Origin: Chrysophaeum taylorii
Lineage: Eukaryota; Sar; Pelagophyceae; Pelagomonadales; Pelagomonadaceae
NCBI GenBank assembly: GCA_029834535.1
Contig: JAQMWT010000541.1
Location: 1-30,215, forward strand
Reading direction: 5' to 3'
DNA: 30,215 nt
The notes beneath the pieces are model-generated. The model did no database searches. It was not told where the DNA came from and saw nothing but the letters and a program-made list of their open reading frames with translations. Positions within the stretch are counted from its first letter, which is position 1. Each line of letters starts with the position of its first letter. The position numbers and the translations under genes were made by a program. Positions 1 to 24,298 of this stretch are shown piece by piece.

Positions 1-1837
1 GCTTGGTGGAAGCTTGATCAACGGTCATGAAATTGGATACATGGGCATTTCTTCGTCACGGCAGCAGTATGTTGGAAGGTAGGGTCCAACATAAGGATTT
101 AATATCGGCAACGAGGACCGAAAGGTGCTTGTACAGAGTGCTGTACGTACCGGCAGGCAGAGCATTGCTGAGCATGTCACAGCAAGGTCATGGCGTAGAG
201 ACAAGAGGAAGGATTCCTGTTGTTTGGTGTGGTTGTTAGCACGAATCAACTCCGGTCGAGTGGGGTAGCGTAATTTCCCGTTGCGAGGGTCGAGTAAAAT
301 AATATTGGCGTACCCTCGGACGGTGGGCAATGGAGCATGCATGGAGTGGATTTTAGAGCCGAGTTTGCGGTCACTTCCACGAAGGTACCCTATATAGCGA
401 CTATGAGATAAGTGGTGATCTTCCAGAGCAAAATGAGAGTCCTTGTAGTCGAAAGAGTTGTCGGTGGCCTTGTAGGTAAGGCAGCCAGGCATCACAAGAG
501 AGCATCTGGACAAGAGCTTTTGTATGGCGGTGCCATAGGTGGCAGCGGAGCCAACTTGGGGAAGGGCTTGGACTATCCACAAGTAACCCATAAACGGCTC
601 CAAATATATGGACCTGTCCCGGTCGCGGGGGATGTCGGAAGCAGTGAACGTATACGTGCTTCCAAACGCGTCAATGGAAGCATGATATTTGGTGGTGGCG
701 TTCTCTATGGTGAGGTTGCCGTCAGAGTGGTGGCCACCAGTTAAGAAGTGGGAGTTGTGTGATGTTGATGAGGTTGTAAGTAGTAACCTGTGTGACGGTT
801 GGTTAGTTTCGAAAACGGTTATGTAATAGGACACAGGAGTCGGTGAGTTAGTGTGTAAGCTGGCAAACAAGTTATAGAGGATTGTAAAAACTTGACATGT
901 ATAGGGTAGGTTGCATTGGGCAATGGCTCCATAGAGGAGCGTTTAAAGCACAGCTGATGATAAGTACACTCGGATTGAACAGAGTGAGTACGTTGCTCGT
1001 GAGCCTGTTGTGAGTGAAGGCGAAGCAGTAACATATTGAGGGATTCAAGGTCAGCCATAGTAAGCTGAACAGAACCTGTGCGAGAGTAAGGTGCAAACGT
1101 TTTAGGAACGGGGATATGTGGAGGATCGGGGAACACCCGGATCCAGTCTTTGGATACGTGTTTAGGTAGCCAAAGGCGCTTGGGAATAGCTTGTAGATCA
1201 TCCACGATCTTTAGGAAGGGGCGTGGATGGAGGATAGGCCACGACAATAATTTAATTGGTCCAGTAGAATATCTGCGTGCGATGCATATCCATCTTCCTC
1301 TAGATTGGTAGTCGCCACAGAGGTAGGTCGGGAACCTATCAACAACATCGACACAGTAATCAAGTGTAGCATGGATAAGTTGGCCACTGTGATGTGGTCT
1401 TGATGACAGTACTTATGTGGAGGCGTCATCTCAGCCAGTAGTACCAAGGGCTGGAGTAGCTTGATGACAGAGAACATGCTGTCGAAAAGAGAATCGTCCA
1501 TCAGGGTGTAAGTCTTCTGTCTTATGCTGTTTTAGTAAATTCCTGTTGTGCAGGGAGGAGTGATCTCAATTTTATCACAATAGAATGTGCGCCTTTCCTC
1601 TGGTGAGATTAGGTGAAGATGGTTAATAAAGGCGGGGAGAGATTCAAATAATAATACAGTAGGGAAACGGTGGCGTAACATACGAACAAGCGTATCATCA
1701 GACTCAACAACAACTTTTACATTGATATTTAAGCCTAAGTCATTAGTGGCTTGAGACAGGAACGCTGGAGTTGACAAACCAGAACAAAGTAACATGACAG
1801 AGGGTTTGCGGAGATTGGACTCTTGTGAAAGAAACAC
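1..1837 (-). pseudogene. C5-cytosine DNA methyltransferase module of the inner Copia copy (frame-broken, runs off the left edge)
   Basis: This is the counterpart of the plus-strand module at 8541-10845. It is split into pieces at 1532-1837, 1211-1501, 819-1247 and 25-870. The first piece carries motif I (MLLCSGLS), the motif II Glu (VVVESDD) and the catalytic loop ITPPCT. A one-base deletion just after the catalytic Cys, relative to the plus copy, shifts the frame. The second piece holds the motif VI-like LLAEM. The QSRGRW motif VIII counterpart lies across the next junction. The last piece covers the long target-recognition region through motif IX, after which the frame shifts again. The site near 1360-1385 matches the plus copy without its SINE, so it gives the empty site of that insertion. 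The fold assignment rests on ordered motifs and is firmer than any claim of activity. Confidence 0.8.
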
Positions 1838-1852
1838 TGGGCGTGAGAGTAA

Positions 1853-3958
1853 TCAGGTTAATGGTTGTGTGTTTTGCTGAACAAACTTGTTCTGTTTCCG
1901 AAGATTGAGAACCAAAGGGCGAATCCACGGGCGATCTGGTAAAACTCTTTGGAGTAGGTAGTTGTAGTATGCCAGTAGATCCCTGTTTTCATGGTATCGC
2001 TTGAGGGGAAATGCGAGGGAACGAAGTTCGAGTTGCTTGTCGCGAGCGATGTTGTAAGTGAGACAAGGGAGAGCAGGTAAATTAGCTGCTATGTAGTGTA
2101 TGGGGATACGTACATCTTTGTCTATGCGGCTCGTGACAGCGCTGAGCTTTGGCTCAGCTCGATCATTGAACACAGTGGTCAGGTTCGTCTGGTTCCACTC
2201 GAGCATGCTCAGGATAGCGAGATGTCGGTCATGCACTGGCTGAAGACATAAAGCGAAGTCGATCTTAACATAGCCAACTTGTGGATGATCTGGTAGGGGA
2301 ACAACAATGTTGCGTGTTAACATCATGTGTGAGGCACGTTGTTGTCCTGTAGCTGTTTGAATAACAATCGGCGCGTATTTGGAGTCCAGTGGAATTATAT
2401 GATTGGGTATTGCAAAATCGTAAGTGGACATCAATGAGATGGTAGCACAAGAGTCAAAATATAGAAAAGAACAATGTGGAGGGACACTGTTTACCTTCAT
2501 GTAGTTGGTGAGGAAGGCGTTTTCCGAATGTGGGCAAGTAGTGGAGAGGCTGGCTGTGAAGAAGTTCTCCAGCAATAACAGATTCGTTGGAATAATAATC
2601 GGTTGAACAGGTGGTGATGGTTCGTCAGCCTCATCAGCCATGCCGTGCTTTTCATCAAATGACGATAGCGAAGTATGATCGGCATCCCTTTTGGTTTCGG
2701 CTTGTGATGGTAGGTTGAGGGCAGATTGGACCTGTGAAGATAGCGAGGACAATAACGCTGGTGGTAAAGCCGAGATGGCGGAAGCGGTAAAGAGGTTAGG
2801 CACGGTATTGGAAGGATTACCCTGTGTGTTTGTAGTAGGAGGAGTTGCCTTTGGGGTGGGAGCAGTAACAACAGTATGGTGTTGTGGCTCCACGTAGTTT
2901 AACGACTTTTCGGTCGAGGATAGATTAACGTCTACATCATAAATGATGTCTTCTGCAAACATGAGTTGTTCGTTTAGACGAAGTAAATTGCTGTTGTCCT
3001 CAGTAGATGTCGTTGACAGAATGTCAGCTGATTGTAATAGAGTCTCAAATAACTTGTTGATATTCTGTTGTAACTGAGCCGTGGTATCATTATCTGTCAC
3101 ATGCTTCGTAAGTTTACTACACTGTTCTCGCAGGGTGTTTAAGGTGTGGTTTGTTCGATCTAATAATTTCATGTTAGACCGAGAGGACCTGTCAAAAGTG
3201 CGGGGGTAAATTGGACGGTCATGAGACTGTCCAGCAGTTTTCTTGGTGACGTAAGAATCACCAGAACGATAATACGATTAATCGCTGCCAGAGAACGGCT
3301 GGCGAGTATCATTAGAGTTACGCAAGCGTCTAGCATTAAACGTGGAAGATGTACCAGGTTGAGACGAAGTGATGAAGGCGAGTGTGTTGGCAGTTTGAGT
3401 CAGACTTCTGTCTGCTGAATCCAGAGTGTTTGTAAGTAGTAACTTTGGCTTTGGTTGAGATGATAAACCTTCGACATAGGGTTGTCAAGAAACGGGGCGT
3501 TCTAAGCGTCTTTTGTTCGACCCATTTGATACTACATTGTATAGGTGTAATGCGTATTCTAAAATGTAGCTAGGGTTGGTAGGGTGACACAATCGTTCAG
3601 CTTCTGGCACAGGCCGAGATGAAGATCGGGTTTCATACATATAACACCAATCTACCCAACCACGATCGTAACGATTGTTGCTGGTATTATTGGCATAATG
3701 CCGATGTATATCTTCATAGATTTTCATACAAAGAGTGCCAAAGTCGAATTGAAGGTCAGTCTCTTCGTGGTTAAGTTGGTAAGAGATTTGCCTAAATGCT
3801 AGGACAGCTTCGATAAATACATGGACATACCATTTAGGATTATAAACAACAGAGTTAAATTGCTGTTTCAAATAGGACACATCAGTAGTCGTAACAGACT
3901 CGTAGTGACGGAAGGCGATGAGCATAATGGCTCGATCCTTGTTGGGTAAATAACTTTT
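1853..3958 (-). pseudogene. Gag C-terminal half plus aspartic protease, inner Copia copy
   Basis: On the minus strand gag resumes after the Helitron at about 3958 and runs to a TGA at 3485-3487, where the plus copy has TGG (Trp). A TAA near 3275 is the other break. From 3172 the frame is open to 1853: a helical gag segment, the junction peptide STEKSLNY (2895-2915), a Pro/Thr/Ala-rich linker, then the retropepsin-like motif YFDSCATISLMS (catalytic Asp codon at 2453-2455). The downstream TATGQQ and HLAILSM stretches match the flap and C-terminal regions of Copia proteases. The usual DS/TG is DSC in both copies. No CCHC zinc knuckle is visible in gag. A TGA separates protease from methyltransferase at the same position as in the plus copy. 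Confidence 0.75.
2895..2915 (-). repeat. TExSLNY junction repeat, inner copy
   Basis: Minus-strand match to the 21-bp repeat found five times in the plus copy (7461, 10846, 12554, 14457, 15744). It encodes TEKSLNY between the gag helical region and the protease linker, exactly where site 1 sits in the plus copy. Confidence 0.85.
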
Positions 3959-3974
3959 GTTATATACCTCACAA

Positions 3975-4345
3975 GTGCAGGCCAGTTAGTTTACCTAGTC
4001 CCAATCTCCAACCCCAGCAAGTTCACCTGTTTCCGTTAAGTTCACCTAGTCCCAATCTCTAACCCCAGCAAATTCGGCGTAAACCCAATCTCTAACCCCA
4101 GTAAGTTCGGCGTAAACCCACACCCACTCTCTTTTGAGCTCGTCGCTCTCACCCCCGCCAATCTAAGCTGCTTTGATCCGCACACGCCGCTAAGCTTTGA
4201 GTTTACTCTAAAAGCCCCAGTAAGTTCACACTTGGTCTCAGTAAGTTCACCTGGTCACTAAGTTCACCTAGTCCCAATCTCCAACCCCAGTAAGTTCACC
4301 TGGTTCCAGTAAGTTCACCTGGTCCCAGTAAGTTAACCTATAGTG
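3975..4345 (-). repeat. Degenerate short tandem repeats at the 3' end of the Helitron remnant
   Basis: Units of about 20-25 bp built on GGTGAACTTACTGG, alternating with GGTTGGAGATTGGGACTAGG, are repeated about ten times on the minus strand. The same tract follows the helicase in the copy at 28850-29195. No ORF or hairpin array is evident. Confidence 0.75.
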
Positions 4346-4929
4346 CGCGTGTAGACGCCGGGAGGGGGCTTATCGGTATTGCGCAGCACGTGTGGGGTAG
4401 GGTGGAGTCGTCGACCCAGAAGAGGATATCCTCGGGGTTGCCGATCGACAGAGAGCCACGTAGAGCTGGACGTGGCAGAAGACGGGCTTGGGCAAGAGAA
4501 CGCCGACCTCGCGGGGCGTCTGGCCCTGGCTCTTGTTGATCGTTTGGCGTCGGCGGGCCTTAAGGGATACAGGTTGGAGGAGCCTCGGTGACAACGACAC
4601 GATCGATCATGTATCTGGTACCGTTGCAGTGGCCGTGCGACGGGTCGAGGTTGCGAAGACTTTAATCTCGCGATCAAAGTCAGCATGCCGTTGGTTGTCA
4701 GGAAGTTCAAAACTCGACTCTCGAGAGCGAGGCGTCGTCTTCCGACCCAACCTAGTCGGCCGAAAAGAACTCCGACGCCTCGTCTCCGGGAAAAAAAGGC
4801 CGCGGTCATGCGCGCGTTGTCAGCATCGACAACATCGTTTCGACGGGGCGTGAGAATGGCGCGCTGAAAGAGCCGCCGCGGGTCGTGGAAACAGTCTGCG
4901 AGGTCGCCGTAGACGGCTTGGAGGATCAA
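4333..4929 (-). pseudogene. PIF1-like helicase C-terminal fragment (Helitron)
   Basis: The minus-strand frame starting near 4929 begins VYGDLADCF, then RAILTPRRNDVVDADN, matching the RAILTP-N-x-VDxIN block of Helitron helicases. The frame shifts near 4780. A LNFLTTNGM stretch matches the NSL-x-x-GLP region. A second frame (4370-4600) carries TINKSQGQTPREVGVLLP and VFCHVQLYVALCRS, the superfamily 1B motif VI region (normally TINKSQGQT, HGQLYVALSR). The N-terminal Rep/HUH domain and helicase motifs I-IV are absent. In the normal element this helicase drives rolling-circle transposition; here it is a dead fragment. Confidence 0.8.
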
Positions 4930-4978
4930 TGGCTGGCTGGCTCGGGCCTACCTGATCCTTACCCTACATCGAGGGACA

Positions 4979-5013
4979 AACAAACAGACAGACAAACAGA
5001 CAAACAGACAAAC
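4979..5013. repeat. (CAGACAAA)n simple repeat at the Helitron 5' edge
   Basis: About 35 bp of alternating ACAGACA and ACAAACA units. A shorter TGTCTGTTTGTC version occurs at the matching edge of the other copy (about 28180-28200 and 28219-28231), so it belongs to the element rather than the host. Confidence 0.7.
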
Positions 5014-5022
5014 ATCTGTCGA

Positions 5023-5781
5023 TTAGTAGTAAGGATTGATGGCGGGCCAGGCCACAAGTGCTGGTTTTCCAACACTTTCGAGATTGAAGTAAGTATGCAA
5101 GAATGTAGCATGCGTGTTCTGATAAGTGTGCCAGTCAGCAGCAGTTAACGAAAACATAGTAACAGGGGCACGAACACGGGTGTCGAAAGCTAATGCCTTC
5201 GGGTGCGCACGATTTAAGATTCGTTCCTCTTCTAAGAAACGGGCATTGATTGCAGGGCGTAATGCCTTGACTTCATAGTCGCAACAGACAGTAGCTAGCC
5301 GAGCTACTTCTGCATCAGGTAAGTGGGGGAAAGCTTCGTTGGTGAAATGCCATTCCTGATACTCAGGGGGCAATTCATCAACAGCTAAACGGAGATCAGC
5401 AGCCCGATCGGTCTTCCATTCCAGGAAAACGCGATCGAGAATTTGATTCCGGAGGATCTCGTAGTCCTTGCATGACCGAGTATATGCTTCGTACGAGTCG
5501 TACTCGAGGAAGGCATCGGCATGACTGGACCGTAACAATTGCTTAATGTGCTTGATTTGCAAGGATACCTTGCGAGTCTGAAGCTGAAATCGATTTCCAT
5601 CGTTAAGAAACTCAACTACAGGAGCTTCGAGCTTCAATATATCCGCACCTGTGATCGCCTTGGGTGCGGCTCGTGCTGCGTGTTCTGCCATAGCAGTTGA
5701 CGGGGAACCTGTGGGTTCAGTCACGCAGTTGACACTGTCTAGACATTCGAAGGGGGTCTGTCTATCGGTGTCTATGTACAC
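5023..5781 (-). CDS. Gag N-terminal part, inner Copia copy
   Basis: Minus-strand ORF of 252 codons. The most likely start is the Met at 5689-5691 (MAEHAARAAPK), since the 30 residues from 5781 look like leader; the upstream Met cannot be excluded. The protein is mixed alpha-helical and soluble, with Trp-rich stretches (EWKTDR, QEWHF, ADWHTYQ), as in capsid regions of LTR-element Gag. I assign it to gag from position (after LTR, PBS and leader, before protease) rather than from a named domain. Its stop at 5023-5025 arises at the Helitron junction; reading resumes at about 3958. The plus copy lacks this part because it begins further downstream. Confidence 0.65.
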   Translation of the reverse strand: MYIDTDRQTPFECLDSVNCVTEPTGSPSTAMAEHAARAAPKAITGADILKLEAPVVEFLNDGNRFQLQTRKVSLQIKHIKQLLRSSHADAFLEYDSYEAYTRSCKDYEILRNQILDRVFLEWKTDRAADLRLAVDELPPEYQEWHFTNEAFPHLPDAEVARLATVCCDYEVKALRPAINARFLEEERILNRAHPKALAFDTRVRAPVTMFSLTAADWHTYQNTHATFLHTYFNLESVGKPALVAWPAINPYY

Positions 5782-6469
5782 TCATCGTTTTCGATGGAAA
5801 GATGTCTATTTGACGACTGTGCAAGCTGTGAGTCCAGAGTAGTGTCGCTAAGCGTAGTCACTCAGGCAGCTGGTTAGTTTTGGTGCTCTCAAGGAGCTTG
5901 TTAAGTGCATTGCCATGGAATGTACGAGTGGACGTACCCAAAATATTCCATAACATGTGTGCAAGAGTACAGGTTAGCCAATTACACACACATCAACATT
6001 GACATGACAATACGATACTATGAACACGTGCACACAAGGTTACACGATCACGTGTGCAAAAAAAGTATTATATATACAGCCCAATGGTAATGGCGTTGTA
6101 TTCACAAGTGTGTTTACGTGTCGAGGCTGAGCCGGCGCGGTAACGGCCCAATACCCATAGGTTACGTGCACGTTTTAACACATGGTTTCTCAGGGACCTC
6201 CCGGGCGGGCCGGTTGGCAGCCGGAACGTTCGCAGTGGGACGGGGTATGGCCGGGGGGCGCAGACGGAAGGTTATCGACGAGTTGGTTGTCAGTCACATC
6301 GCGGTCTCCTCGTCGCATGGCGACAAGCTTGATGGCCACTCTCCGCCGACCGACCTTTCGGCGCTCCTCGTCTACAGGCCCGTGATTCCGGACTGGCTCC
6401 TGTCGGTCCGGCCTGGCTCCCATGCTCGGGAGAGGTCTGAAGTTGGTTAGTTAGTTCTCAGGGACCCGC
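5782..6469 (-). other. Leader (5' UTR) of the inner Copia copy
   Basis: Region between primer-binding site and gag start. It has no convincing ORF. It holds the SINE-like insertion at 6199-6454; without that, the leader is about 420 bp. An AT-rich, ACAC/TGTG-rich stretch lies at 5930-6110. Confidence 0.6.
6199..6454 (+). mobile_element. SINE-like retroposon, subtype B, 5'-truncated
   Basis: A 256-bp insert flanked by a 12-bp direct repeat TTCTCAGGGACC (6187-6198 and 6455-6466). It ends GGTCTGAAG followed by a TTAG-type tail. The body is nearly identical to 24000-24190. It lacks the GGTTGCGATGG head seen in longer copies. Target duplication, 5' truncation and a simple-repeat tail at one end fit LINE-type retroposition. 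No pol III boxes or tRNA-like head could be recognised. Confidence 0.75.
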
Positions 6470-6483
6470 CTGGGCCCATAACC
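6470..6483 (-). promoter_or_regulatory. Primer-binding site, half-tRNA(iMet) type
   Basis: Minus-strand GGTTATGGGCCCAG lies directly after the LTR end (GCTCTGCA). Its complement CTGGGCCCATAACC matches the anticodon stem-loop of initiator tRNA-Met, including CAT. Copia-group elements are known to prime from an internal cut of tRNA(iMet) rather than its 3' end, which fits. Confidence 0.85.
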
Positions 6484-6798
6484 TGCAGAGCGTTTAGCAA
6501 GCAGTGGTAAGTCACCTGGGAAACCACCCCGTCTCACCATGAACTTCTGGAAGTATTTAATTCGGGAAATGAAAAGGTATGTTCCCTATATCCTCAGAAC
6601 ACGACAGGCGGCATCTAGAACTACACGAGAAAGGTAAAGTGTATAGTGCTACATACCTCGGGACGCGCTAGACCATGCTGATGAGCGTAGGCACAAATCA
6701 GAGGACTATTTGATTGTGTAGAAAGGAAGAAGAAGGGTAAGGAAGAGATCACGTTCTCAACGGACGGATAAGGGTAAGAGGCAGCAGATTTCTCTGCA
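6484..6798 (-). repeat. 5' LTR of the inner Copia copy
   Basis: A 315-bp repeat whose reverse complement matches 16649-16963, also 315 bp. On the minus strand it begins TGCAGAG and ends CTCTGCA, the TG...CA ends with a 7-bp terminal inverted repeat expected of an LTR. The primer-binding site follows immediately, which fixes it as a 5' LTR. Its U3 edge at 6798 touches gag of the plus copy at 6799. Confidence 0.9.
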
Positions 6799-8519
6799 AA
6801 CCCTAGCTATATCTTAGAATGCGCATTATACTTATATAATGTAGTATCAAATGGGTCGAACAAAAGACGCTTAGAACGCCCTGTTTCTTGGCAACCTTAT
6901 GTTGAAGGATTGACACCACAACCAAAGCCGAAATTACTACGGACAAACACGCTGGGTTTATCAGACAAAAGTCTGACTCAAACTGCAAACGCGCTCGCGT
7001 CCATTACTTCTTCTCAACCTGGAACATCCTCCACGTTTAACGCTAGACGCTTGCGTAACTCTAACGATGCTCGCCAGCCTTTCTCTCGCAGCAACCTATC
7101 GTATTATCGTTCTGGTGATTCTTATGTCACCAAGAAAACTGCTGGACAGTCCCATGACCGTCCAATTTATCCCCGCACTTTCGACAGGTCCTCTCGATCT
7201 AACATGAAATTATTAGACCGAACGAAGCACACCTTAAATACACTGCAAGAGCAGTGTAGTGAACTTACGATGCATGTGACAGATAATGATATCACGGCTC
7301 AGCTACAACAGAACATCACCAAGTTATTTGTGACTCTGTTGCAATCCGCTGATATTCTGTCAACGACATCGACTGAGGACAATAGTGACGTACTTCGCCT
7401 AAACGAACAACTCATGTTCGCAAAAGACATCATTTATGATGTAGACGTTCATCTATCCTCGACCGAAAAGTCGTTAAACTACGTGGAGCCACAACATCAT
7501 ACTGTTGCTGCTGCTCCCACCCCAACGGCAACTGCTCCTACTACAGATACCAAGGATGCCTCCAACACACAGGGTAATCCCTCCGATATTGTGCCTAACT
7601 TCTTTACTGCTTCCGCCGTCTCGGCGTTACCACCAGCGTTACTGTCCTCGCTATCTTCACAGGTCCAATCAGCCATCAACCAACCACCACAAGCCGAAAC
7701 CACAAGGGATGTCGATCAGACCTCGCTATCATCATTTGATGAGAAGCACGGCATGGCTGATGAGGCTGACGAACCATCACCACCTGTTCAACCGATTATC
7801 ATTCCAACTCACCTGTTATTTCTGGATAACGTCTTCACTGCCAGCCTCTCCACTACTTGCCCGCATTCGGAAAATGCACTTCCAACGAAATATATGAAGG
7901 TGAACAGTGTCCCCCAACATTGTTCCTTTTTATATTTTGACTCTTGTGCTACCATATCATTGATGTCCACCTACGATTATGCTATACCAAATCACATTAT
8001 TCCACTGGATTCCAAATACACTCGATTATCATACAAACTGCCACTGGACAACAACGTGTCACACATATGATGCTAACACGTAATGTAGTTGTTCCCCTAC
8101 CAGATCATCCACAAATCGGCTACGTCAAGATTGACTTCGCTTTATGTCTTCAGCCAGTGCACAACCGACATCTCGCTATCCTGAGCATGCTCGAGTGGAA
8201 CCAGACGAACTTGACCACTGTGTTCAATGATCGATCTGAGCCAAAGCTCAGCGCTGTCACGAGCCGCATAGACAAAGATGTGCGTATTCCCATACATTAC
8301 GTAGCAGCTAATTTGCCTGCTCTCCCTTGTCTCACCTACAACATCGCTCGCGACAAGCAACTCGAACTACGCTCCCTCGCATTTCCGCTCAAGCGATACC
8401 ACGAAAACAGGGATCTACTGGCATATTATAACTATCTCCTCAAGAGAGTTTTACCAGATCGCCCGTGGATTCGCCCTTTGGTTCTTAATCTTCGGAAACA
8501 GAACAAATTCATGCAGTAA
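6799..8519 (+). CDS. Gag C-terminal half and aspartic protease, outer Copia copy (partial, one frameshift)
   Basis: The frame is open from the first base after the LTR (6799) to 8070, so gag enters without its own start. It carries RPVSWQPYVEG, helical segments around 7200-7440, STEKSLNY (7461-7481), a Thr/Ala/Pro linker, and the protease motif YFDSCATISL with Asp at 7939-7941. A one-base loss near 8020 relative to the minus copy moves the rest (TATGQQ, RHLAILSMLEWNQ) to the frame ending at 8519. The TAA at 8517-8519 is CAA in the minus copy. A further TGA, 15 bp on, is shared by both copies and precedes the methyltransferase. The protease should cut the Gag-Pol polyprotein. Asp-Ser-Cys in place of Asp-Ser/Thr-Gly is unusual. 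No CCHC knuckle is seen. Confidence 0.8.
7461..7481 (+). repeat. TExSLNY junction repeat, site 1 (gag | protease)
   Basis: Starts GACCG and ends GTCGTTAAACTA; encodes TEKSLNY in the gag-protease frame. Upstream is the helical gag region, downstream the low-complexity linker to the protease. Confidence 0.9.
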
Positions 8520-8540
8520 AACACTCCGCAATTAACATGA

Positions 8541-10845
8541 ATGCTTTATCGCCCAGTGTTTCTCTCACAAGAGCCCAATCTTCGCAAACCCTCTGTCATG
8601 TTACTCTGTTCTGGTTTGTCAACCCCAGCGTTCCTGTCTCAAGCCACTAATGACCTAGGCTTAAATATCAATGTAAAAGTCCGTGTTGAGTCTGATGATA
8701 CGCTTGTGCGCATGTTACGCCACCTCTTTCCTACAGTATTGTTATTTGGATCTTCACCTGCCTTTATCAACCATCTTCACCTGATCTCACCAGAGGAAAG
8801 GCGCAAATTTTATTGCGATATTATTGAGATCACTCCTCCCTGCACCAACAGGGATCTACGAAAGAAGCACAAGACCGACGACTTACATAGCCTGCTCGAC
8901 GACTCTCTGTTCGACAGCATGCTGTCTGTCATCAAACTTCTCCAACCCTTGGTACTACTGGCTGAGATGACACCACCCCACAAGTACTGTCATCAAGACC
9001 ACATAAATGTCGCCAATCTCATCCATGCTAACTAACTAACTAAATTCAGACCTCTCCCGAGCATGGGAGTCAGGCCGGACAGGCAGGAGCCGATCCGGAA
9101 TCACAGAGGAAAATCGCGCAGTTGGGGCTGAGGCGAGGGACGAGGACTCGTTGATGACGGGCCGCCACTGCGCGCGGTCTTGTGCGAAGTCGTGCAAAAG
9201 CGTCGCAGGCCGCAAACGTGTTGGTCCACGAACAATCGACCTGTCCGTCGCGTTCTGCCCAACCGAGCGAACCCCATCCCAGCGCGGACTTTCCGGGTGC
9301 TAACCGGCCAGCCCGGGAGGCGAGCAGGCACCGTCTCACTCCGGGACGGCCGGGGCCGCCGCAGGGAGCCAGCGTGTCAGGCGCCGTCCTCCATCGCAAC
9401 CAACGCATCCATGCCACACTCGATTACTGTGTCGATGTTGTTGACAAGTTCCCGACCTACCTCAGTGGCGACTACCAATATAGGGAAAGGTGGATCTGCA
9501 TCGCACGCAGGTATTCTACTGGACCAATCAACATACTGTCATGGCCTATCCACCACCCACGCCCCTTCTTTAAGATCGTGGATGACATACAAGCCATTCC
9601 TAAACGACTTTGGCTATCCAAAGATATCTATAAAGATTGGATCCGGGTGTTCCCCGATCCTCCATATGTCCCCGTTCCTAAAACGTTTGCACCTTACTCT
9701 CGCACAGGTTCTGTTCAGCTTACTATGACTGACCTTGAAACACTCAACTTGTTATTCCTACGCCTTCATTCACAACAGGCTCACGAGCAACGCACGCACT
9801 CTGTTCAGTCCGAATGTACTTACCATCAGCTGTGTTTCAAACGCTCCTCCTTGGAACCACTGCCACATGCAACTAATCCACTGCATGTCAAGGCTTTTAC
9901 CATCCTCTATAACGTGTTTGCCAGATTGCACACTAACTCACCCACTCCTGTGTCCTATTACATAACCGTTTTCGAAACTGACCAACCGTCACATAGGTTA
10001 CTACTTACAACCTCATCACCATCACACAATACCAACTTCCTAACCGGCGGCCACCATTCTGACGGCAACCTCACCATAGAAAACGCCGCCACCAAGTATC
10101 ATGCTTCCATCGACGCGTTTGGAAGCACGTATACGTTCACTGCTTCCGACATCCCCCGCGACCGGGACAGGTCCATATATTTGGAGCCGTTTATGGGTTA
10201 CTTGTGGATAGTCCAAGCCCTTCCCCAAGTTGGCTCCGCTGCCACCTATGGCACCGCCATACAAAAGCTTTTGTCCAGATGCTCTCTTGTGATGCCTGGC
10301 TGCCCTACTTACAAGGCCACCGACAACTCTTTCGATTACAAAGATTCTCATTTTGCTCTGGAAGATCACCACTTATCCCATAGTCGCTATATAGGGTATC
10401 TTCGTGGAAGTGACCGCAAACTCGGCTCTAAAATCCACTCCATGCTTGCTCCATTGCCCACCGTCCGAGGGTATGCAAACATTATCTTACTCGACCCTCG
10501 CAACGGGAAACTACGCTATCCTACTCGACCGGAGTTGATTCGTGCTAACAACCACACCAAACAACAGGAGTCTTTCCTCTTGTCTCTTCGCCACGACCTT
10601 TGCTGCGACATGCTCAGCAATGCTCTGCCTGCCGGTACGTACAGCACACTGTACAAGCACCTCTCGCTCCTCGTTGCCGATATTAAATCTCTTATGTTGG
10701 ACCCTACCTTCCAACATACTGCTGCCGTGATGAAGAAATCCTATGTATCCACCTTCATGACCTTTGATCCGGCCTCCACCACGTGCAGCACAGATACCTT
10801 GTCTTTGGCACAAACCTTTATGACGTCTATCTCCAGCAACTGCTT
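8541..10845 (+). pseudogene. C5-cytosine DNA methyltransferase encoded inside the Copia element (split by a SINE)
   Basis: Two open pieces, 8541-9022 and about 9406-10845, join at the SINE insertion. C5-methyltransferase motifs occur in order: motif I SVMLLCSGLS (8592-8621), motif II Glu (VRVESDD), motif IV ITPPCT with catalytic Cys at 8841-8843, motif VI LLAEM in place of the usual ENV with the Glu kept, motif VIII GDYQYRERW matching QxRxR (about 9470-9495), a long target-recognition region, motif IX-like KLRYPTRPEL, and motif X-like MLSNALPAG (10609-10635) for GNAVP. The enzyme would add a methyl group to C5 of cytosine using S-adenosylmethionine. PPCT for PPCQ and a weakened FxGxG are unusual. 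It lies between protease and integrase, ends at a junction repeat, and is present in both element copies, so it belongs to the element. LTR elements carrying such enzymes have been reported in charophyte algae and dinoflagellates. Confidence 0.83.
9029..9405 (-). mobile_element. SINE-like retroposon, subtype A, inserted in the methyltransferase
   Basis: A 377-bp insert flanked by the 9-bp direct repeat CATCCATGC (9020-9028 and 9406-9414). The minus copy of the Copia element (about 1360-1385) supplies the unoccupied site. On the minus strand it reads from GGTTGCGATGGAGGAC to GGTCTGAATT plus a (TTAG)n tail next to the left repeat. It closely matches 20552-20956. The first 75 codons of the 9182-10909 reading frame come from this insert, not from the element protein. 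Confidence 0.85.
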
Positions 10846-10866
10846 GACCGAAATGTCGTTAAACTA
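10846..10866 (+). repeat. TExSLNY junction repeat, site 2 (methyltransferase | integrase)
   Basis: Encodes LTEMSLNY at the end of the methyltransferase frame. A (TA)n run starts inside its last codon, and the integrase continues in another frame immediately after. Confidence 0.9.
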
Positions 10867-11618
10867 TATATATATCTTCGTCCTACGAAGATACTCTCGC
10901 TACTCGTGATGATGAGGATGCACCTCCAAGTGACCCTGCTGCGCACCAGGACGACGACGGACCACCTCCTCCTGCCTTGGACACCGAACTCAAGTTCGAT
11001 GTTCGGCGCAAACGTCATATCCCCGCTCATCCCATTCCTCGCCAATCCTTCGCACGCAGATCTGCTGAATACCTCAACGCCAAAGAACGTGCCAATCGCT
11101 TCCACCGGGTGCACCACTGCCCCGACAACGTCGCAGCCAAGGCCCCCAACGTACTGGCTCGCCCTGGCTTCTCTGCCTCAGACCTACCGTATCGCGACTT
11201 ATGCACCGACTGCATCGCACATAACAAGCGCCACCCGCACAAGCACTTCAATCCGACCAAGCCCTCTTTTGAGCAAACTCACAAAGCCGGCGAAGTCTGG
11301 GCGTGCGACGGCGGCTATGTGACAATTCCATCAGAATGGGGAGGCTTCACACATATTATTGTGTTCAAAGAGCTTATCTCGAAATTTATCTTGGTGTACT
11401 TTACACGCACCACCAACGCCACGGAGTTCACTCAAGCTCTGGACTTCGTGTATGACTTTTGTCGTACACAACTCAACGTGCACATGCGCACCCTCTTCTC
11501 TGATGCCTTCAAGCCCTATTTTAGCCAGCACATTACCGCCCCGTACCGCGTCGATAAGGGCATTCAGCTCATCGCTTTCCCGCCGTACATGCACCACTTT
11601 AACTTTGAAGTCGAGTGA
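10867..11618 (+). CDS. Copia integrase, zinc-binding and DD35E core
   Basis: After an acidic, Pro-rich start (EDTLATRDDEDAPPSD) comes a Copia-type pre-integrase zinc finger: HRVHHC followed by CTDCIAHNK (His/Cys pairs about 11103-11230). The catalytic core follows: first Asp in VWACDGGYV (about 11305), second Asp in LFSDAFKPY, and Glu in FNFEVE with 34 residues between the last two, i.e. the DD35E spacing. The enzyme joins element cDNA ends to target DNA. The frame stops at TGA 11616-11618 directly after the catalytic Glu region, so the usual C-terminal part is absent or lies past the stop. The true start is uncertain because it should be released from a polyprotein at site 2; the (TA)n frameshift now separates it. 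Confidence 0.85.
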
Positions 11619-12553
11619 GCTTCATCGCCTCCGCCACACGCTCCTCCCGCGCCTTTCTCGCTCACACCCCACGCTGCTATCCAAGACCATCTCATTCAGA
11701 CGGGGACAAGGACACCTCATCCTCAGAGGGGACACTCTCCACCTCCCTCAGCTCCTTCTTCGTCCCCTGCTCCTGCTTCTCCTCCCTCTTCCGACGCTCC
11801 CGTCGACGATCCTGGCTCTATGCCACCGCCGCCCTTGCTTCCTTCTTACAAAGACCTTTTTGCACAAGATGACCTCATTCTTGTCCCAGGTTCCAAACAA
11901 CCTAACACCCGCAAGGCAACCTCCATGAAAAATATCCAAGCCTGGCTGCAAGCGTCCACTATTGGTGCTTACAAAGCCGCTGGTGGCAAACTCGCCGATT
12001 TCCGCTGGGATCTTCGCCACCACTTTCTTACGATCAAGTCCCCCGCCCTCTCCGCCCTTCATATCATTGGTGGTATCCTCTGGTCTGCTGTCTGCTCAGA
12101 GGGGGAACATGCGTTGTTAGCTCGTCTTCTTCTCCCGTTGCGCACTGACTTACTTGCCCGTTACCCTCACGTCGATGGTTACTTCGCCCACGCTAAGTGC
12201 GCATCCAGCATCCCAGCCGCAACCTTTCTAACTGCTGATGGTTCACCTACGTGCCCCATTCCTCAGCCTCTTTTAGCTGCGTTCACTGAGCACGCTGCTG
12301 CCTTTGGCATCTCTTCCTTACAGTATGCACTTACGTATCTGGCGCCGACCAGCTTTATCGATCACAACTCCTCCGAGTTTGGCGCTAATTCTGCATCTCT
12401 GTCTGACTTGGAGGAATACCTTCTGGTCTCTACAGAGTATATCACCCAGGTCTTACATGCCGACCCTACTATCCATATTCAACTGGAATCTGCTTCTTCT
12501 ACCCCTCCTACTGACGCTGTTTCCGCTTATCCCGAAGTCGCGCACACTGCCTC
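11619..12553 (+). CDS. Proline-rich linker and integrase C-terminal region of Pol
   Basis: The integrase frame stays open after its TGA to 12779. It first encodes a very Pro/Ser/Ala-rich stretch (about 11619-11830), comparable to low-complexity linkers between integrase and RT in Copia Pol. Next is a globular-looking 220-residue segment starting PSYKDLFAQDDLILVPG and including VDGYFAHAKC and YALTYLAPTSF. The second segment matches nothing I recognise. It ends at junction repeat site 3, so it would be released with integrase. Function unknown; the continuous frame and position support it as a real coding part. Confidence 0.55.
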
Positions 12554-12574
12554 GACCGCAACGTCGTTAAACTA
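12554..12574 (+). repeat. TExSLNY junction repeat, site 3 (integrase | reverse transcriptase)
   Basis: Encodes STATSLNY in the integrase-linker frame, about 50 codons ahead of the first Copia RT motif (AIAKELHDIIRFGCF). Confidence 0.9.
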
Positions 12575-14439
12575 TAGTTCACCAGCCACTGTTGGTCCTG
12601 ACGAATATAAGGTCCAAGAAGCGGACGTTTCCATCGACGAATATAAACTTAAGTGCCTCCACGGTATGTCGCCTGAAGACAGGCACGCCTACCTCAAGGC
12701 CATCGCCAAGGAACTCCACGACATTATCCGCTTTGGCTGCTTCAAACTTTCCTTACCCGACGGTGTCTCTCCCTATTGACAGCAGGATGGTGCTGAAGAT
12801 TAAAACAGACTCTGCAGGCAAATACGTTAAGCACAAGGCTCGCCTCGTGCTACGTGGCTTCCTAGCATCCCTTGGCGCCGATTTCTTTGGCACCTTCAGC
12901 CCCATGGCCACAATGACCGCAATCCGGGTACTACTGGCTATTGCAGCATACAAGCAATTGCCTGTCTACCACGCAGACGTCCCGAACGCCTTCGTTCAGT
13001 CTGACATTGATGCCAACGTCTATGTTCAGTTACCAGACGGCATCAAGCTTATCGACCCCGATGACGCTAAGTACAAGGGCCGACGTCTACCGAAACTGCT
13101 GAAGTCACTTTATGGACTTCGGCAATCACCATCTCTTTGGAACAAAGAGATAGACGGCTTCTTCCGTAGCCTTGGCTACAAGCGCCTGCATTCGGACTCT
13201 TGCCTATATGCTCGAGTATCCGCACATGCTAAGTTCGTCGTATGCAGTCTGTCTGTAGACGACATTGTTATTGTGTCCAATGATGACACTCTTCGTACTG
13301 AGTTACAGGATGCCCTCCACAAACGGTATGCTGTAGAGCAGTTTGAACCTGTCCATACCCTCCTAGGCATGCGTGTGTGTCGCACATCTGATGGATCCAT
13401 TTCTCTGGATGTGCAAGCCAAGGATGAACTCTTCGCTGATCACCCTGTCTTGCAGCAACTGACCCCGCTTAAATATCCTATGTCATCGTCCTTCAAGTAT
13501 AAAGATGGCACTCCCAGCTCTGAAACAGAGTTGTACATCAACTCGCACTTTGCCACCCTCCTTGGCAAGCTGGTGTTCATGCAAGTTGCCTGCAGACCTG
13601 ACTTCTCGCAAGCCTTGGGCAGATGTTCACGTGGTATGCATGCACCCACGTATGCTCACGTCCAAATGCTAGAACACCTGCTCCGCTACCTCAAGAAGCC
13701 GGAAAACCGCTCACTTCGCCTCTGGTTCCATCCTAAAGGTAATGCCATTGAAGCTCACCTTCGCACTGTCTCCGCTAATCGAATTGATCTATCCACTGTG
13801 GTCGACTACCAACCGCTGGATGTATCTACTGGAGAGTTTGATCCCTTAGTTGCCATGGTTGACGCTGACAATGCCCCTTCCTTAGCACAGGAAGATAGGA
13901 AATCTACCACCGGGTTTGTCTTCTATCTTTTCAACTGCCTTATTGGTTGGAAAAGCAAGCTTCAACCGATTGTCTCCTGCTCAACTCACGAAGCTGAGTT
14001 GATTGCCCTCAGTATTTGTGCTGATGAAGCTGTTTGGCTACGCAAGCTGCTGTTGGAACTCTCCTTTGTCGTCAACCCCACCTTCTACGTCAACAATGTT
14101 AATGGTGAGAACACCGCTGATCCTGTTGATTTCGATGACAATGACAACCCAATTGCTGAAGATATGCGCTTCATCAGAAGCCTACCTCTCTTGTCTGACA
14201 ATGCTGCTGCTGTTCACACCTCTAATAACCCAGATGGATCCTCTCGATCCAAGGCACTGTCGACCAGATGGTTTAAGATCCGTGAGTACATCTCGCTACA
14301 GAAAATTCGAGTCCATCATGTTCCCGGCAAGCTAAACGTGGCTGATGGTTTTACAAAGCCACTTGCTGCTGAGTTCTCCACTTTTCGTTCTCTACTCGGC
14401 ATGCATCATGCCTCTGATGACAAGCCTTTACAGGATTGA
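12575..14439 (+). CDS. Copia reverse transcriptase and RNase H (one frameshift)
   Basis: The RT starts in the integrase frame (AIAKELHDIIRFGCFKLSLPDG) and moves by +1 near 12770 into the frame ending at 14439. Diagnostic blocks: VLKIKTDSAGKYVKHKARLV, HADVPNAFVQSDI, LYGLRQSPSLW, and the catalytic SVDD at 13252-13263 (usually YVDD). RNase H follows: VDADNAPSLAQEDRKSTTGF, QPIVSCSTHEAELIALS, LLSDNAAAVH, then HHVPGKLNVADGFTKPL, the typical Copia C-terminus. It copies element RNA into cDNA and removes the RNA strand. The TGA at 14437-14439 closes the frame. The same frame continues through TAG (14476) and TGA (14521) into the next ORF. Confidence 0.93.
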
Positions 14440-14456
14440 AGATGCCTAACCCTAGT

Positions 14457-14477
14457 GACCGCAACGTCGTTAAACTA
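14457..14477 (+). repeat. TExSLNY junction repeat, site 4 (reverse transcriptase | ORF3)
   Basis: In the RT frame, 17 bases after the RT stop, it encodes TATSLN and then TAG where other sites have the Tyr codon TAC or TAT. The nucleotide sequence is otherwise kept, so the repeat outlived the reading frame here. Confidence 0.88.
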
Positions 14478-14523
14478 GCCCTGGCCCTACCTTCTTTTGC
14501 CACAATTTTTTGTGCGCGTGTGA

Positions 14524-16506
14524 GTGTCGCTCATGTCCTTTTCTTGGCACTCCCGTGGCCGCGGCATCTCCCCAGTCGTTCGAAGGACAGTCCCACGCTC
14601 GCTCTCCACGGCCGAACCTTCTCCCAGGTTGTCGCAAAAGCGACAACCCATGACTGCTGCTACTGCTACCCCACAGGCTGCTGCTGTTGCACCGACACCA
14701 GCCGAACATATCTCACCTCAGTCGCTAACGCTCCAGGACGGCCTCAGCATGGACTATGCTTTGTACGAACGAGGAATCTCTCTCCTTGAGAACTTCCGTG
14801 TCCCTGTCACCCCATTTCTCTCTTCTTTTATGCGAGTGGAACTCATCACTGCCCTACATTCCGTCTATGAGTCTACTGACTTTTCATTATTTGTGGAACT
14901 GACCACATTCATATCCATGCGCTTACCCATTACTATACCTTGGGAAGCTGCTCCTGCTATTGCTTCTATTGGCTGCTATAGAGGCCCCAAACGCGAACGT
15001 TTCATTTTGTCGTCCTTTTGTACGCAATGCCTCAATGATCTTGGACAACCGACTTTCCTCGTCTCGACCACGTACAGTTCCAAGGCGCAAACACCTCGTG
15101 AACTCCCCACCGAAGTGCTGAGTCACCTCAACACGGACGACCATAAGAAGAATGGTCACATCCCCATCTCGGCTATTACTATGGGTTTGTGCTTTGCGTG
15201 CCACAATACTGATCAGGTGCCTACACAACCTACCGTATGTGCTCGCAATGATACTTCCTTCCAATTCCCTTGTGATGCGCGCTCAGCTGGTCATATACGC
15301 GCTACCCTCATACGCATCTATCATTTGCCAAGGGAGTTATACACTCTTTTGACAAGTATGCTAGCTCAACACCCGTCACTTGTTAACTTGGTCTTATCCG
15401 TATCCGATACAGCCACAGACCCCACCACACAACTGCCATTAGCACTGGATCTTCGGCTTATAACACAGATGCACCTTGAGCATCTTAATTTCCTTGTGAC
15501 TCTTGTTCGAACACAGAGTCGCAAAGCTCAGGCTATGTTCAAGCCCTCCAAATTCCAACATGTGGTTACCACTGTTGCCCAATCGTGGGTACAACATCTT
15601 GACGACTACGTATCATCTTCAGATGATACAAAACCGCCGTCACTCCTGGATGTAATGTTCGGCCCCACTTATACTCAGGCAGAACATCAAGACTTTCTGC
15701 GCTTTTTAAACGCGAAACACCCCCTACTTGCACAGCATGTGTTGACCGAAACGTCGTTAAACTACTCACTCTCCACATCAGACCCTACTCTGGAGATGTC
15801 TTCGCCATCGACACACCCTGCGCCTTCTGCTTCGCTTGATGATTTCGATGCCTTGCGTCAACAAGTCGAACAACTCCAGGAAACTCTTCGAACACACGTT
15901 CGCAAGGTCAACACTCTCAGTGCTGAGAATCTATCTCTACGCACAGATCTACAGGCTGCCATTGCTTCAATCACCTCCCTGGAGAACCGGCTCTTTCCTC
16001 CTACAGCCAACGCCCACGTTTTACTTATAACACTGTACAAGATCACAGAGCTGTTGTCTCGCTTAACTCTTACCGCTCATGACCAATATGCCGCCAACCA
16101 CTCCTCCCCGGACGATCACCTCCTTCATCTGCGTGACAAGTTGCTCTCATGCATTCAGAGCATTCCGCTCTCATGTGAATCGGAAGACTCTTCTATCTTC
16201 TCGGATCCGTTCGCTGAGTCCAACTTCTTGGAAAACCAACTGGACACCCTACAACTTGACTCGCTGGTGCCATCCATACTGAATGCTTTACTTGCACTCA
16301 CGTTTCGCATGGTACCACACCATTCTGCTATTGGTGTTAACCACCTTACAGCAGAAACTGACGACGACGATACCAATACTCTCGAACCAGCAACGATGTC
16401 CACCACCTCAGATAGTCCTAACACACTGTATGTCATACCTGTGTTTCGTAATGTTCTGTTCAAAAGCTTCAAATCGACTCTCAGCTCCACCAAGTCCAAG
16501 CCCTAA
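14524..16506 (+). CDS. Extra 3' ORF (ORF3) of the Copia element, unknown function
   Basis: About 660 codons; the first ATG is at 14533 (the frame opens at a GTG). I do not recognise the family. Residues 1-60 are basic and Ser/Pro/Ala-rich. Residues 70-410 look globular, with FCTQC (166-169) and LCFACH (223-227) that could hold zinc. LTETSLNY at about 409-414 (site 5) divides the protein. Residues 439-492 form a leucine-rich coiled coil (LRQQVEQLQETLRTHV onward). The tail is acidic and then basic. No signal peptide or membrane span is seen, so an envelope is unlikely. It shares the RT frame but is separated by three stops, so it needs readthrough, reinitiation or its own RNA. It sits before the polypurine tract, inside the element. 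Confidence 0.75.
   Translation: MSLMSFSWHSRGRGISPVVRRTVPRSLSTAEPSPRLSQKRQPMTAATATPQAAAVAPTPAEHISPQSLTLQDGLSMDYALYERGISLLENFRVPVTPFLSSFMRVELITALHSVYESTDFSLFVELTTFISMRLPITIPWEAAPAIASIGCYRGPKRERFILSSFCTQCLNDLGQPTFLVSTTYSSKAQTPRELPTEVLSHLNTDDHKKNGHIPISAITMGLCFACHNTDQVPTQPTVCARNDTSFQFPCDARSAGHIRATLIRIYHLPRELYTLLTSMLAQHPSLVNLVLSVSDTATDPTTQLPLALDLRLITQMHLEHLNFLVTLVRTQSRKAQAMFKPSKFQHVVTTVAQSWVQHLDDYVSSSDDTKPPSLLDVMFGPTYTQAEHQDFLRFLNAKHPLLAQHVLTETSLNYSLSTSDPTLEMSSPSTHPAPSASLDDFDALRQQVEQLQETLRTHVRKVNTLSAENLSLRTDLQAAIASITSLENRLFPPTANAHVLLITLYKITELLSRLTLTAHDQYAANHSSPDDHLLHLRDKLLSCIQSIPLSCESEDSSIFSDPFAESNFLENQLDTLQLDSLVPSILNALLALTFRMVPHHSAIGVNHLTAETDDDDTNTLEPATMSTTSDSPNTLYVIPVFRNVLFKSFKSTLSSTKSKP
15744..15764 (+). 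repeat. TExSLNY junction repeat, site 5 (inside ORF3)
   Basis: Encodes LTETSLNY between the globular part and the coiled-coil part of ORF3. Confidence 0.9.
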
Positions 16507-16641
16507 GACACCCCTTCTATACTCTTGATGCTTCGTATGTGACCTCTGCGACCATCAAGACTGTATTCTCCTTTTTCTTTCCTTCATCATCATCTTTCTC
16601 CAGAGATGTTCTATAGTCGCACCTTGCGCTTAAGACATCTC
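16507..16641 (+). other. 3' untranslated region of the outer Copia copy
   Basis: About 135 bp between the ORF3 stop and the polypurine tract. It is pyrimidine-rich in the middle (TTTCTTTCCTTC). No gene is seen. Confidence 0.6.
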
Positions 16642-16648
16642 GAGGGGG
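16642..16648 (+). promoter_or_regulatory. Polypurine tract
   Basis: GAGGGGG directly precedes the TG of the LTR at 16649. This is the expected plus-strand primer site and fixes the right-hand repeat as a 3' LTR in plus orientation. Confidence 0.75.
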
Positions 16649-16963
16649 TGCAGAGAAATCTGCTGCCTCTTACCCTTATCCGTCCGTTGAGAACGTGATC
16701 TCTTCCTTACCCTTCTTCTTCCTTTCTACACAGTCAATTAGTCCTCTGATTTGTGCTCAAGCTCATCATCATGGTCTAGCGCGTCCCGAGGTATGTAGCA
16801 CTATACACTTAACCTTTCTCGTGTAGTTCTAGATGCCGCCTGTCGTGTTCTGAGGATATTGGGAACATAACCTTTTATTCCCCGAATTAAATACTTCCAG
16901 ACGCTCATGATGAGACGGGATGATTTCCCAGGTGACTTACCACTGCATGCTAAATGCTCTGCA
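16649..16963 (+). repeat. 3' LTR of the outer Copia copy
   Basis: 315 bp, starts TGCAGAG and ends CTCTGCA. It is the reverse-orientation counterpart of 6484-6798, the same length with few differences by eye. The polypurine tract lies immediately upstream. Confidence 0.9.
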
Positions 16964-16977
16964 CTGGGCCCATAACC
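16964..16977 (-). promoter_or_regulatory. Second half-tRNA(iMet) primer-binding site, next to another LTR family
   Basis: CTGGGCCCATAACC on the plus strand is identical to 6470-6483. On the minus strand it directly follows the end of a second LTR type (GTTCTCTA at 16978), so it reads as that family's primer-binding site. The 3' LTR of the outer Copia copy abuts its other end. Confidence 0.65.
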
Positions 16978-17095
16978 TAGAGAACAGTTATTTCAACTGT
17001 GTTACCCTTCAGCCGAGCGTGGGGACAGTGGTAGTCTGTCCTCGAATCTGTCTCCTGGAACGAGGACAGCCGGTGTGAATAAGACCCGTTCTCTA
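16978..17095 (-). repeat. Fragment of a second LTR family (LTR2)
   Basis: TAGAGAACAGTTATTTCAAC through GTGTGAATAA matches 29333-29425 with few changes, including the GAGGACAG and GGTAGTCTG segments. After 17080 the sequence diverges and ends GTTCTCTA. Boundaries beyond the shared part are uncertain. Confidence 0.55.
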
Positions 17096-20551: not shown

Positions 20552-20956
20552 CGATCGCTAACCATATGGTTGCGATGGAGGACGGCGCCTAACACGCTTG
20601 CTCCCTGCGGCGGCCCCGGCCGTCCCGGAGTGAGACGGTGCCTGCTCGCCTCCCGGGCTGGCCGGTTAGCACCCGGAAAGTCCGCGATGGGATGGGGTTC
20701 GCTCGGTTGGGCAGAACGCGACGGACAGGTCGATTGTACGTGGACCAACACGTTCGCGGCCTGCGACGCTTTTGCACGACCTCGCACAAGACCGCGCGCA
20801 GTGGCGGTCCGCCATCAACAACTCCTCGCCCGTCCTCTCTGCCCCAACTGCGCGATTTCGCTCTGTGATTCCGGATCGGCCCCTGCCGGTCCGGCCTGGC
20901 TCCCATGCTCTGGCTCCCATGCCTCGGGAGAGGTCTAAAGTTAGTTAGTTTAGTTA
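20552..20956 (+). mobile_element. SINE-like retroposon, subtype A, in the MULE gene
   Basis: A 405-bp insert between two copies of the 12-bp direct repeat GCTCGAGCGCAG (20540-20551 and 20957-20968). It has the GGTTGCGATGGAGGAC head near 20568 and a GGTCTAAAG plus TTAG tail. It closely matches the reverse complement of 9029-9405. A short duplication near its 3' end repeats CTGGCTCCCATG. Confidence 0.85.
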
Positions 20957-24201: not shown

Positions 24202-24298
24202 TAGTAGACGGACGGTGGAAAGTTCCATTTCAAGAGTGTTGCGGCCGCGCGGTAGCTGTCAATCGTGTAGAGGCCGCGCGATAGCACGACGCTGTCGG

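Follow-up and report, generated by a model that had tools for sequence, protein, structure and literature searches.

A divergent C5-cytosine methyltransferase predicted in the Pol polyprotein of a Copia-type retrotransposon from Chrysophaeum taylorii

DNA methylation commonly targets retrotransposons, and an element that brings its own methyltransferase raises the question of what methylation does for the parasite. Such a case is suggested by contig JAQMWT010000541.1 (C541) of the pelagophyte alga Chrysophaeum taylorii (assembly GCA_029834535.1; 70.8 Mb in 697 contigs), the complete 30,215 bases of which are termed the window here. A first-pass annotation of the window had recognized a C5-cytosine DNA methyltransferase (DNMT) inside a Copia long terminal repeat (LTR) retrotransposon, and the region examined for this enzyme spans positions 8541-10845. 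We find that the module in question is almost certainly a C5-METHYLTRANSFERASE, albeit a divergent one. We further consider it likely that its carrier is a Copia-superfamily element with a C5-methyltransferase in pol, which is made via bypass of an in-frame UGA codon and methylates the element's own cDNA before integration.

The methyltransferase motifs can be read in order between protease and integrase, much as first annotated: motif I (LLCSGLS, 8601-8621), motif IV (TPPC, 8832-8843), motif VI (AEMTPP, 8961-8978), and motif VIII (QYRER, 9476-9490), with candidates for motif IX (KLRYPTRPEL, 10508-10537) and motif X (DMLSNALPAG, 10607-10636), all of them upstream of the integrase and the reverse transcriptase (RT). 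The far C-terminal part, which bears the two candidates, aligns pairwise with the DNMT of a second element of this genome (L042, described below) at an E value of 0.003. Motifs IX and X had first been assigned to RTGSVQLTM and NPLHVKAFTILYNVF; given the collinear match to L042, the C-terminal part is the better candidate, and a longer profile alignment with L042 also passes through the RTGSVQLTM/NPLHVKAFTILYNVF pair.

Homologues and predicted folds point to the same family. A protein search retrieved a single transcript protein of the Marine Microbial Eukaryote Transcriptome Sequencing Project (MMETSP), P0001, with 42% identity over 353 residues, and a profile search added the homologues P0002, P0003, and P0004. 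Among PHROG families, P0001 matches one of DNA methyltransferases at 3e-8, and two of the four homologues pass the 22-bit cut-off of the Pfam DNA_methylase family PF00145 (P0002 at 23.0 and P0004 at 23.6 bits; P0001 at 20.2 and P0003 at 17.7 lie below it). With a profile of the homologues and window pieces as the query, the top three of 10 matches in PDB were two cytosine-specific methyltransferases, 8yf3 (E 0.086) and 3g7u (E 0.41), and M.HhaI (E 0.55); all three alignments pair the catalytic Glu, those to 3g7u and M.HhaI also the Cys, and those to 8yf3 and M.HhaI also the QxRxR motif. For an AlphaFold model of P0001 built from six sequences, the top 41 of the 50 PDB matches shown by Foldseek are all C5-methyltransferases, with DNMT1 first. 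The AlphaFold2 model of a 164-residue piece of the window module, built from five sequences, has the Rossmann strand-helix order that the first-pass annotation had anticipated; here the top 22 of the 50 matches shown are all C5-methyltransferases, four of them at an E value of 0.001 or less, with human DNMT2 first at 3.6e-5. When scaled by query length, the template modeling scores are about 0.3 and 0.45, modest values of the kind that partial and shallow models would give. The enzyme is too divergent to place in a DNMT class, the best folds being those of DNMT2 for the window piece and DNMT1 for P0001. Relatives of P0001 or of the window piece were not found among viral contigs, and a tblastn search of phages with P0002 gave four records, the best three (26% identity, E 0.1) over Synechococcus phage cytosine methylases and the fourth over a gene annotated as a tryptophan halogenase.

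A further line of evidence comes from other DNMT-bearing loci of the same genome, in which PF00145 has 121 matches. Four of these places were read (L041 to L044), and two of the four lie in other retroelements. In L042 (C96:63300-66300), a single frame contains a DGGAS protease-like motif (assigned by eye), a canonical DNMT (PCQ and ENV; PF00145 at 4.4e-8), and the beginning of an integrase. The latter matches its counterpart in the window at an E value of 1e-9, from which we infer a Copia-type family, its RT lying outside the stretch read. The profile of the window family aligns with the L042 DNMT over 286 columns (E 8.5e-8, score 65.9), as against maximal scores of 31.0 for 120 shuffles of L042 and 21.4 for seven other open reading frames (ORFs). 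Given these profile and pairwise matches, the two families share a DNMT module at the same place in the predicted polyprotein. A search for protein homologues of the L042 DNMT found none among 8000 candidates scored. The second retroelement, L043 (C235:20600-23600), is Gypsy-like, since its PF00145 frame (2.1e-5; LFSGAGGS and SPPC) lies upstream of, and is overlapped by, an RVT_1 frame (1.1e-13). The first-pass suggestion of another capture or a divergent member thus fits a genome in which a second Copia-like family and a Gypsy-type element also carry DNMTs. Dozens of partial PF00145 matches in long frames similar to L043 are also listed in the genome. L041 and L044 encode DNMTs (PF00145 at 4.1e-19 and 6.5e-18) with no RT in the 1.4-2 kb read, and the frame beside the L041 DNMT ends in a stretch that we take to resemble a chlorophyll a/c-binding protein with an ARAF-type signal, as would suit an alga whose plastid is secondary.

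Within the window, the module lies in a plus-strand copy of the element, which is accompanied by an inverted copy. The features are as follows.

6794-16963, plus strand: Copia copy, delimited by repeat arms and an LTR match; 5' end apparently removed by the nested inverted copy, 3' end complete.
6794-8519, plus strand: 3' part of gag and protease-like region, from ORFs; the frame is broken in this copy.
8538-8540, plus strand: in-frame UGA separating the protease region from the DNMT.
8541-9028, plus strand: DNMT catalytic lobe with motifs I, II, IV (TPPC), and VI (AEM), from homology to P0001 and P0002, PF00145 on the homologues, AlphaFold2, and Foldseek.
9029-9405, plus strand: 377-nt insertion of a dispersed repeat resembling a short interspersed element, with the 9-bp target duplication CATCCATGC (9020-9028 and 9406-9414).
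9406-10864, plus strand: remaining DNMT module with motif VIII and candidate motifs IX and X, from the ORF at 9158-10909, alignments, and the collinear L042 match.
10846-10866, plus strand: 21-nt boundary motif encoding T-E-M-S-L-N-(Y), a candidate protease site between DNMT and integrase.
10863-11618, plus strand: integrase (rve), from a PF00665 match at 10863-11615 (6.5e-4; 20.3 bits, under the curated cut-off of 32.6).
12571-14439, plus strand: Copia-type RT and downstream pol, from a PF07727 (RVT_2) match at 12571-14436 (6.9e-42).
14524-16506, plus strand: ORF3, 660 residues, situated downstream of pol and ahead of the 3' LTR; it contains a boundary motif and may form a coiled coil.
16649-16963, plus strand: 3' LTR of the plus copy, 315 bp, TGCAGAG...CTCTGCA, preceded by the purine run CGAGGGGG.
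1-6798, minus strand: inverted copy, with its 5' LTR at 6798-6484, a junction stop codon at 1855-1853, and the DNMT from 1852 to the contig end.

The features of Copia elements are present, namely an RT of the RVT_2 type, an integrase upstream of the RT, and LTRs with a primer site and a purine tract. For the DSG/DTG signature of an aspartic protease, the candidate is DSCAT at 7939-7953, assigned by eye from motif and order, and the protease-like region has no Pfam match above the cut-off. The element is about 11.7 kb long, a value that sums distances across two copies rather than measuring one assembled sequence, and its GC content is 46-50%, as against 65-68% in two gene stretches.

The module is no peculiarity of this copy. 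It is present in the inverted copy, and a genome search with the 164-residue piece gave at least 151 matches, the window's two included, many of them with open frames (847 candidates at first look, of which 150 were scored, with only part of them listed); 21 among the matches listed carry an internal stop. Counts of residues, stops, and substitution rates refer to 39 unique copies after merging of duplicates (L001 is the window itself, L002 equals L035, and L014 equals L032). A protease region directly precedes the module in all 39, and in 21 the alignment continues into the start of an integrase. Among the 18 that do not show one, 16 are either fetched pieces of short length or the cut copy of the window, and the remaining two, L029 and L040, have none within the stretch read. 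Hence the module belongs to the element, as first annotated. The catalytic Cys, the catalytic Glu, and the Gln of QxRxR are each retained in all 39 copies; of the two Arg residues of that motif, the first is kept in 38 of 39 copies and the second in 38 of 38. The median ratio of nonsynonymous to synonymous substitution rates (dN/dS; pairwise, Nei-Gojobori) is lowest for the catalytic lobe from motif I to the start of motif VIII, where it stands at 0.093 (697 of 741 pairs usable); two further DNMT parts give 0.188 and 0.194, gag 0.126 (551 pairs), the protease region 0.148 (678), the RT 0.151 (90), and the integrase 0.247 (202), while off-frame controls of the same regions have medians of 0.83-2.5. 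The catalytic lobe gives 0.061 when L035 is compared with L037 and L039, two divergent copies (dS of about 2). The DNMT module is therefore under purifying selection.

The second conserved feature is the UGA codon directly before the module, found in 37 of the 38 copies that have a codon there. The exception, L030, has an adjacent deletion, and L022 has no sequence at that place. The codon is kept across the tree of copies, including the outgroup copies L037 and L039, and its contexts are UGACUA (16 copies), UGAAUG (11), UGAAUA (7), and three singles; UGA followed by CUA is a leaky context. Elsewhere in the module, stops occupy only 17 of 23,622 codon cells and never occur in more than two copies at one place. 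Because the in-frame UGA is so consistently kept, production of the DNMT, integrase, and RT probably depends on recoding.

Taking these observations together, we propose that Gag-protease would be the main product and that a minority of ribosomes would pass the UGA, by readthrough or by restart at the AUG that follows it in some copies, to yield Gag-protease-DNMT-integrase-RT as a minor product, as is usual for Gag-Pol. The element protease would then cut at repeated TExSLN|Y sites, leaving the DNMT either fused to the protease or released. Within the particle, the enzyme could methylate the new cDNA before integration, such that new copies would arrive in a methylated state, which might serve as a self mark, as a shield from DNA sensing or nucleases, or as a means of controlled silencing. 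Taken alone, this role in methylating element cDNA before integration, the likeliest one for the enzyme, is a proposal for which we see the case as evenly balanced.

Several results weigh against this proposal. No DNMT match was found for the window pieces in Pfam or PHROG, and the open copy L002 (663 residues in a single frame) had no match in Pfam, NCBIfam, or PHROG and found nothing in PDB by sequence; therefore, the family link depends on the homologues. Of the DNA_methylase hit and the Rossmann-like core that the first-pass annotation had looked to, the window sequence did not yield the former, but P0002 and P0004 pass the PF00145 cut-off and the window piece does model with the Rossmann order. 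The profile matches in PDB are weak (E 0.086-0.55), and the confidence of the models is low to middling (predicted local distance difference test scores of 44 for P0001 and 67 for the window piece). Beyond L042, the profile of the window family shows no clear match to the other three DNMTs, namely L044 (E 0.0032 over motifs I to VI; score 32.6, probability 10%), L041 (E 0.027; 1.8%), and the Gypsy-type L043 (E 0.15; 0.4%). The copies were chosen as best matches, for long frames, or, in a few cases, for divergence, which biases all regions toward conserved ones. No RNA structure with covariation was found downstream of the UGA. Nor was a clear footprint of CpG deamination found between copies, the ratios of C/T changes to transversions in CG (2.0-2.6) overlapping those in CHH (1.8-3.0). 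This count started from 42 rows, of which L037 and L039 were set aside, 10 were unmapped over the DNMT, and three were duplicates that the count still contains. Raw C/T rates in CG exceed those in CHH in three of four regions and match them in the fourth; there is no clear CpG-specific support in this, since transversions are likewise, or nearly so, raised in CG of the coding parts. The observed-to-expected CpG ratios (0.85-0.93 in the Copia-DNMT family, 1.02 in L042, 1.16 in L043, and 1.34-1.53 in the two GC-rich gene stretches) offer hints of depletion, confounded by GC content.

Against this background, four other explanations deserve consideration. That the motifs are chance occurrences in an unrelated pol region would fit the lack of a direct family match for the window sequence and L002 and of a clear profile match to the three other DNMTs; we regard it as extremely improbable in view of the fold matches, the homologues above the Pfam cut-off, and the shuffle-controlled match to L042, and the module is more than chance given its at least 151 genome matches, its selection, and its folds. 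A degenerate, inactive methyltransferase kept for structure or nucleic acid binding is suggested by the AEM of motif VI in place of ENV, the CSGLS of motif I, and a sequence below Pfam detection. This appears quite unlikely for a domain that has the lowest dN/dS within the element; its catalytic Cys, Glu, and QxRxR show little or no variation across 39 copies and also occur in P0001 and P0002.

The remaining two grant activity and differ in the substrate. DNMT2 acts on tRNA anticodon loops, and Copia elements use half-tRNA primers; the module might thus be a DNMT2-like 5-methylcytosine methyltransferase of the element RNA or of its tRNA primer, in keeping with human DNMT2 as the best PDB match of the window piece and with the primer-like site found behind the LTR in 10 of 11 loci. 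We nevertheless think this fairly unlikely: the P0001 model ranks DNMT1 first, the part with the candidate motifs IX and X is not classifiable, and the accessible text of de Mendoza et al. (2018, PMC5890265) raises RNA methylation for the enzyme of a long interspersed nuclear element (LINE) only. Alternatively, the enzyme could serve as a mobile source of genome methylation, with the host genome or competing elements as its substrates in trans. This reading gains from the many open frames among the at least 151 matches and from the PF00145 matches of the genome, two of four read being in other retroelements; it is unlikely in that packaging is to be expected of a domain that sits inside Gag-Pol. 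A bolder synthesis, possible though doubtful, is that a whole Copia clade has had a pol methyltransferase for so long that it diverged beyond family models, that in this lineage the UGA switch yields a protease-methyltransferase fusion acting on cDNA or the half-tRNA primer in the particle, that Gypsy elements of this genome are also armed, and that retroelements may be a main source of cytosine methylation in this alga.

The cleavage step of our preferred proposal draws on the boundary motif, GACCG(A/C)AAnGTCGTTAAACTA, which recurs at polyprotein boundaries on the plus strand of the window at 7461, 10846, 12554, 14457, and 15744, and which has one to four sites in each of 20 other family loci scanned (with at most four mismatches, and duplicate loci within the count). 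At three sites compared between L035 and the divergent L037, the motif is identical at 19-20 of 21 positions, as against 31, 34, and 66 of 90 in the flanks (ungapped). This nucleotide identity exceeds what the peptide would need, and the motif can form a small, weak hairpin; a function at the nucleotide level or sequence exchange between sites is possible. No TExSLN motif was found between the protease region and the DNMT, and a protease-DNMT fusion is possible for that reason.

At the pol end (window 14437-14478), a UGA is present in all six copies reaching there, and another boundary motif follows it in frame, closing with TAG in three of the four copies reaching that far (CAG in L034). It looks as if pol could once have read through into ORF3, which has no Pfam family above the cut-off. 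Behind the 5' LTR, the primer-like site GGTTATGGGCCC was found in the 10 loci mentioned, one of them with one changed base. Its apparent complementarity to the anticodon arm of a CAU tRNA raises the possibility of a half-tRNA primer. Directly 3' of the 3' LTR (16964-16980) lies CTGGGCCCATAACCTAG, a sequence that can adopt the fold of a CAU anticodon arm and within which the primer-like site occurs as its reverse complement. This is a possible tRNA gene target or remnant; ARAGORN found no tRNA within the window.

The plus copy itself is dead, being broken by the 377-nt insertion and stop codons; the target duplication identifies the former as an insertion that interrupts the DNMT. A relative of this insert lies at 20567-20913, and dispersed noncoding repeats occur at 6197-6456, 9029-9405, 20567-20913, and 23943-24202, both inside retrotransposons and elsewhere in the window. 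The inverted copy appears to be nested in the gag of the plus copy, because the outer end of its 5' LTR abuts the broken gag with an overlap of 5 bp (6794-6798); its far end lies beyond the contig.

Capture of DNMTs by retrotransposons is known, and it is the Copia host with a protease-DNMT-integrase layout that is new. As far as the accessible text of de Mendoza et al. goes (PMC5890265), DNMTs have been described in LINE, DIRS, and Gypsy retrotransposons. KnitGypsy-Dnmt3 of Klebsormidium nitens (PMC5890265) is likewise an LTR element with a C5-DNMT inside Pol under purifying selection (Ka/Ks < 0.2), a bound below which all three DNMT parts of the window family fall; that element is of the Gypsy type and its enzyme Dnmt3 related, whereas ours has a Copia-type RT, a divergent DNMT missed by Pfam, and a conserved UGA ahead of that DNMT. 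SymbioDIRS-Dnmt3 and SymbioLINE-Dnmt of Symbiodinium, in the same text, likewise represent hundreds of DNMT genes in the retrotransposons of an algal genome, with DIRS and LINE elements as carriers in contrast to the Copia carrier here; the Symbiodinium Copia elements are given there as devoid of any DNMT domain. De novo methylation of CG by the DIRS enzymes was seen in yeast, and the authors put forward cDNA methylation (PMC5890265). In the portions available of three further papers, Dnmt3 members are placed in "LTR Copia and DIRS families" with citation of PMC5890265, which itself says Gypsy (PMC12344493); Sola DNA transposons of Ectocarpus carry a different kind of methyltransferase, of the N4/N6 type with ParB (PMC12477816); and Copia elements are treated as targets of methylation (PMC9998398). 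In the open-licence literature searched, we came across no Copia element described as having a C5-DNMT that lies between the protease and the integrase.

With a Copia case, and with Copia-like and Gypsy-type carriers in the same genome, DNMT capture would seem to be both more frequent and more ancient than surveys based on Pfam could reveal, given that the window enzyme itself escapes Pfam. The closest parallel is the L042 family, which likewise has a collinear DNMT between a protease-like motif and an integrase but differs in its canonical PCQ and ENV motifs, its PF00145 score above the cut-off, and the absence, in the stretch read, of any stop codon separating protease from DNMT. For the UGA, the parallel is Tca2 of Candida albicans, an element of the Copia type. 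In the available text on Tca2 (PMC2194720), an in-frame UGA between two ORFs must likewise be bypassed, and in yeast the sequence around it was not sufficient on its own for readthrough. That UGA lies between gag and pol, with DNMT unmentioned in the same text, whereas in the window family it lies between the protease region and the DNMT, which makes the conserved codon a testable link between translational control and enzyme dose.

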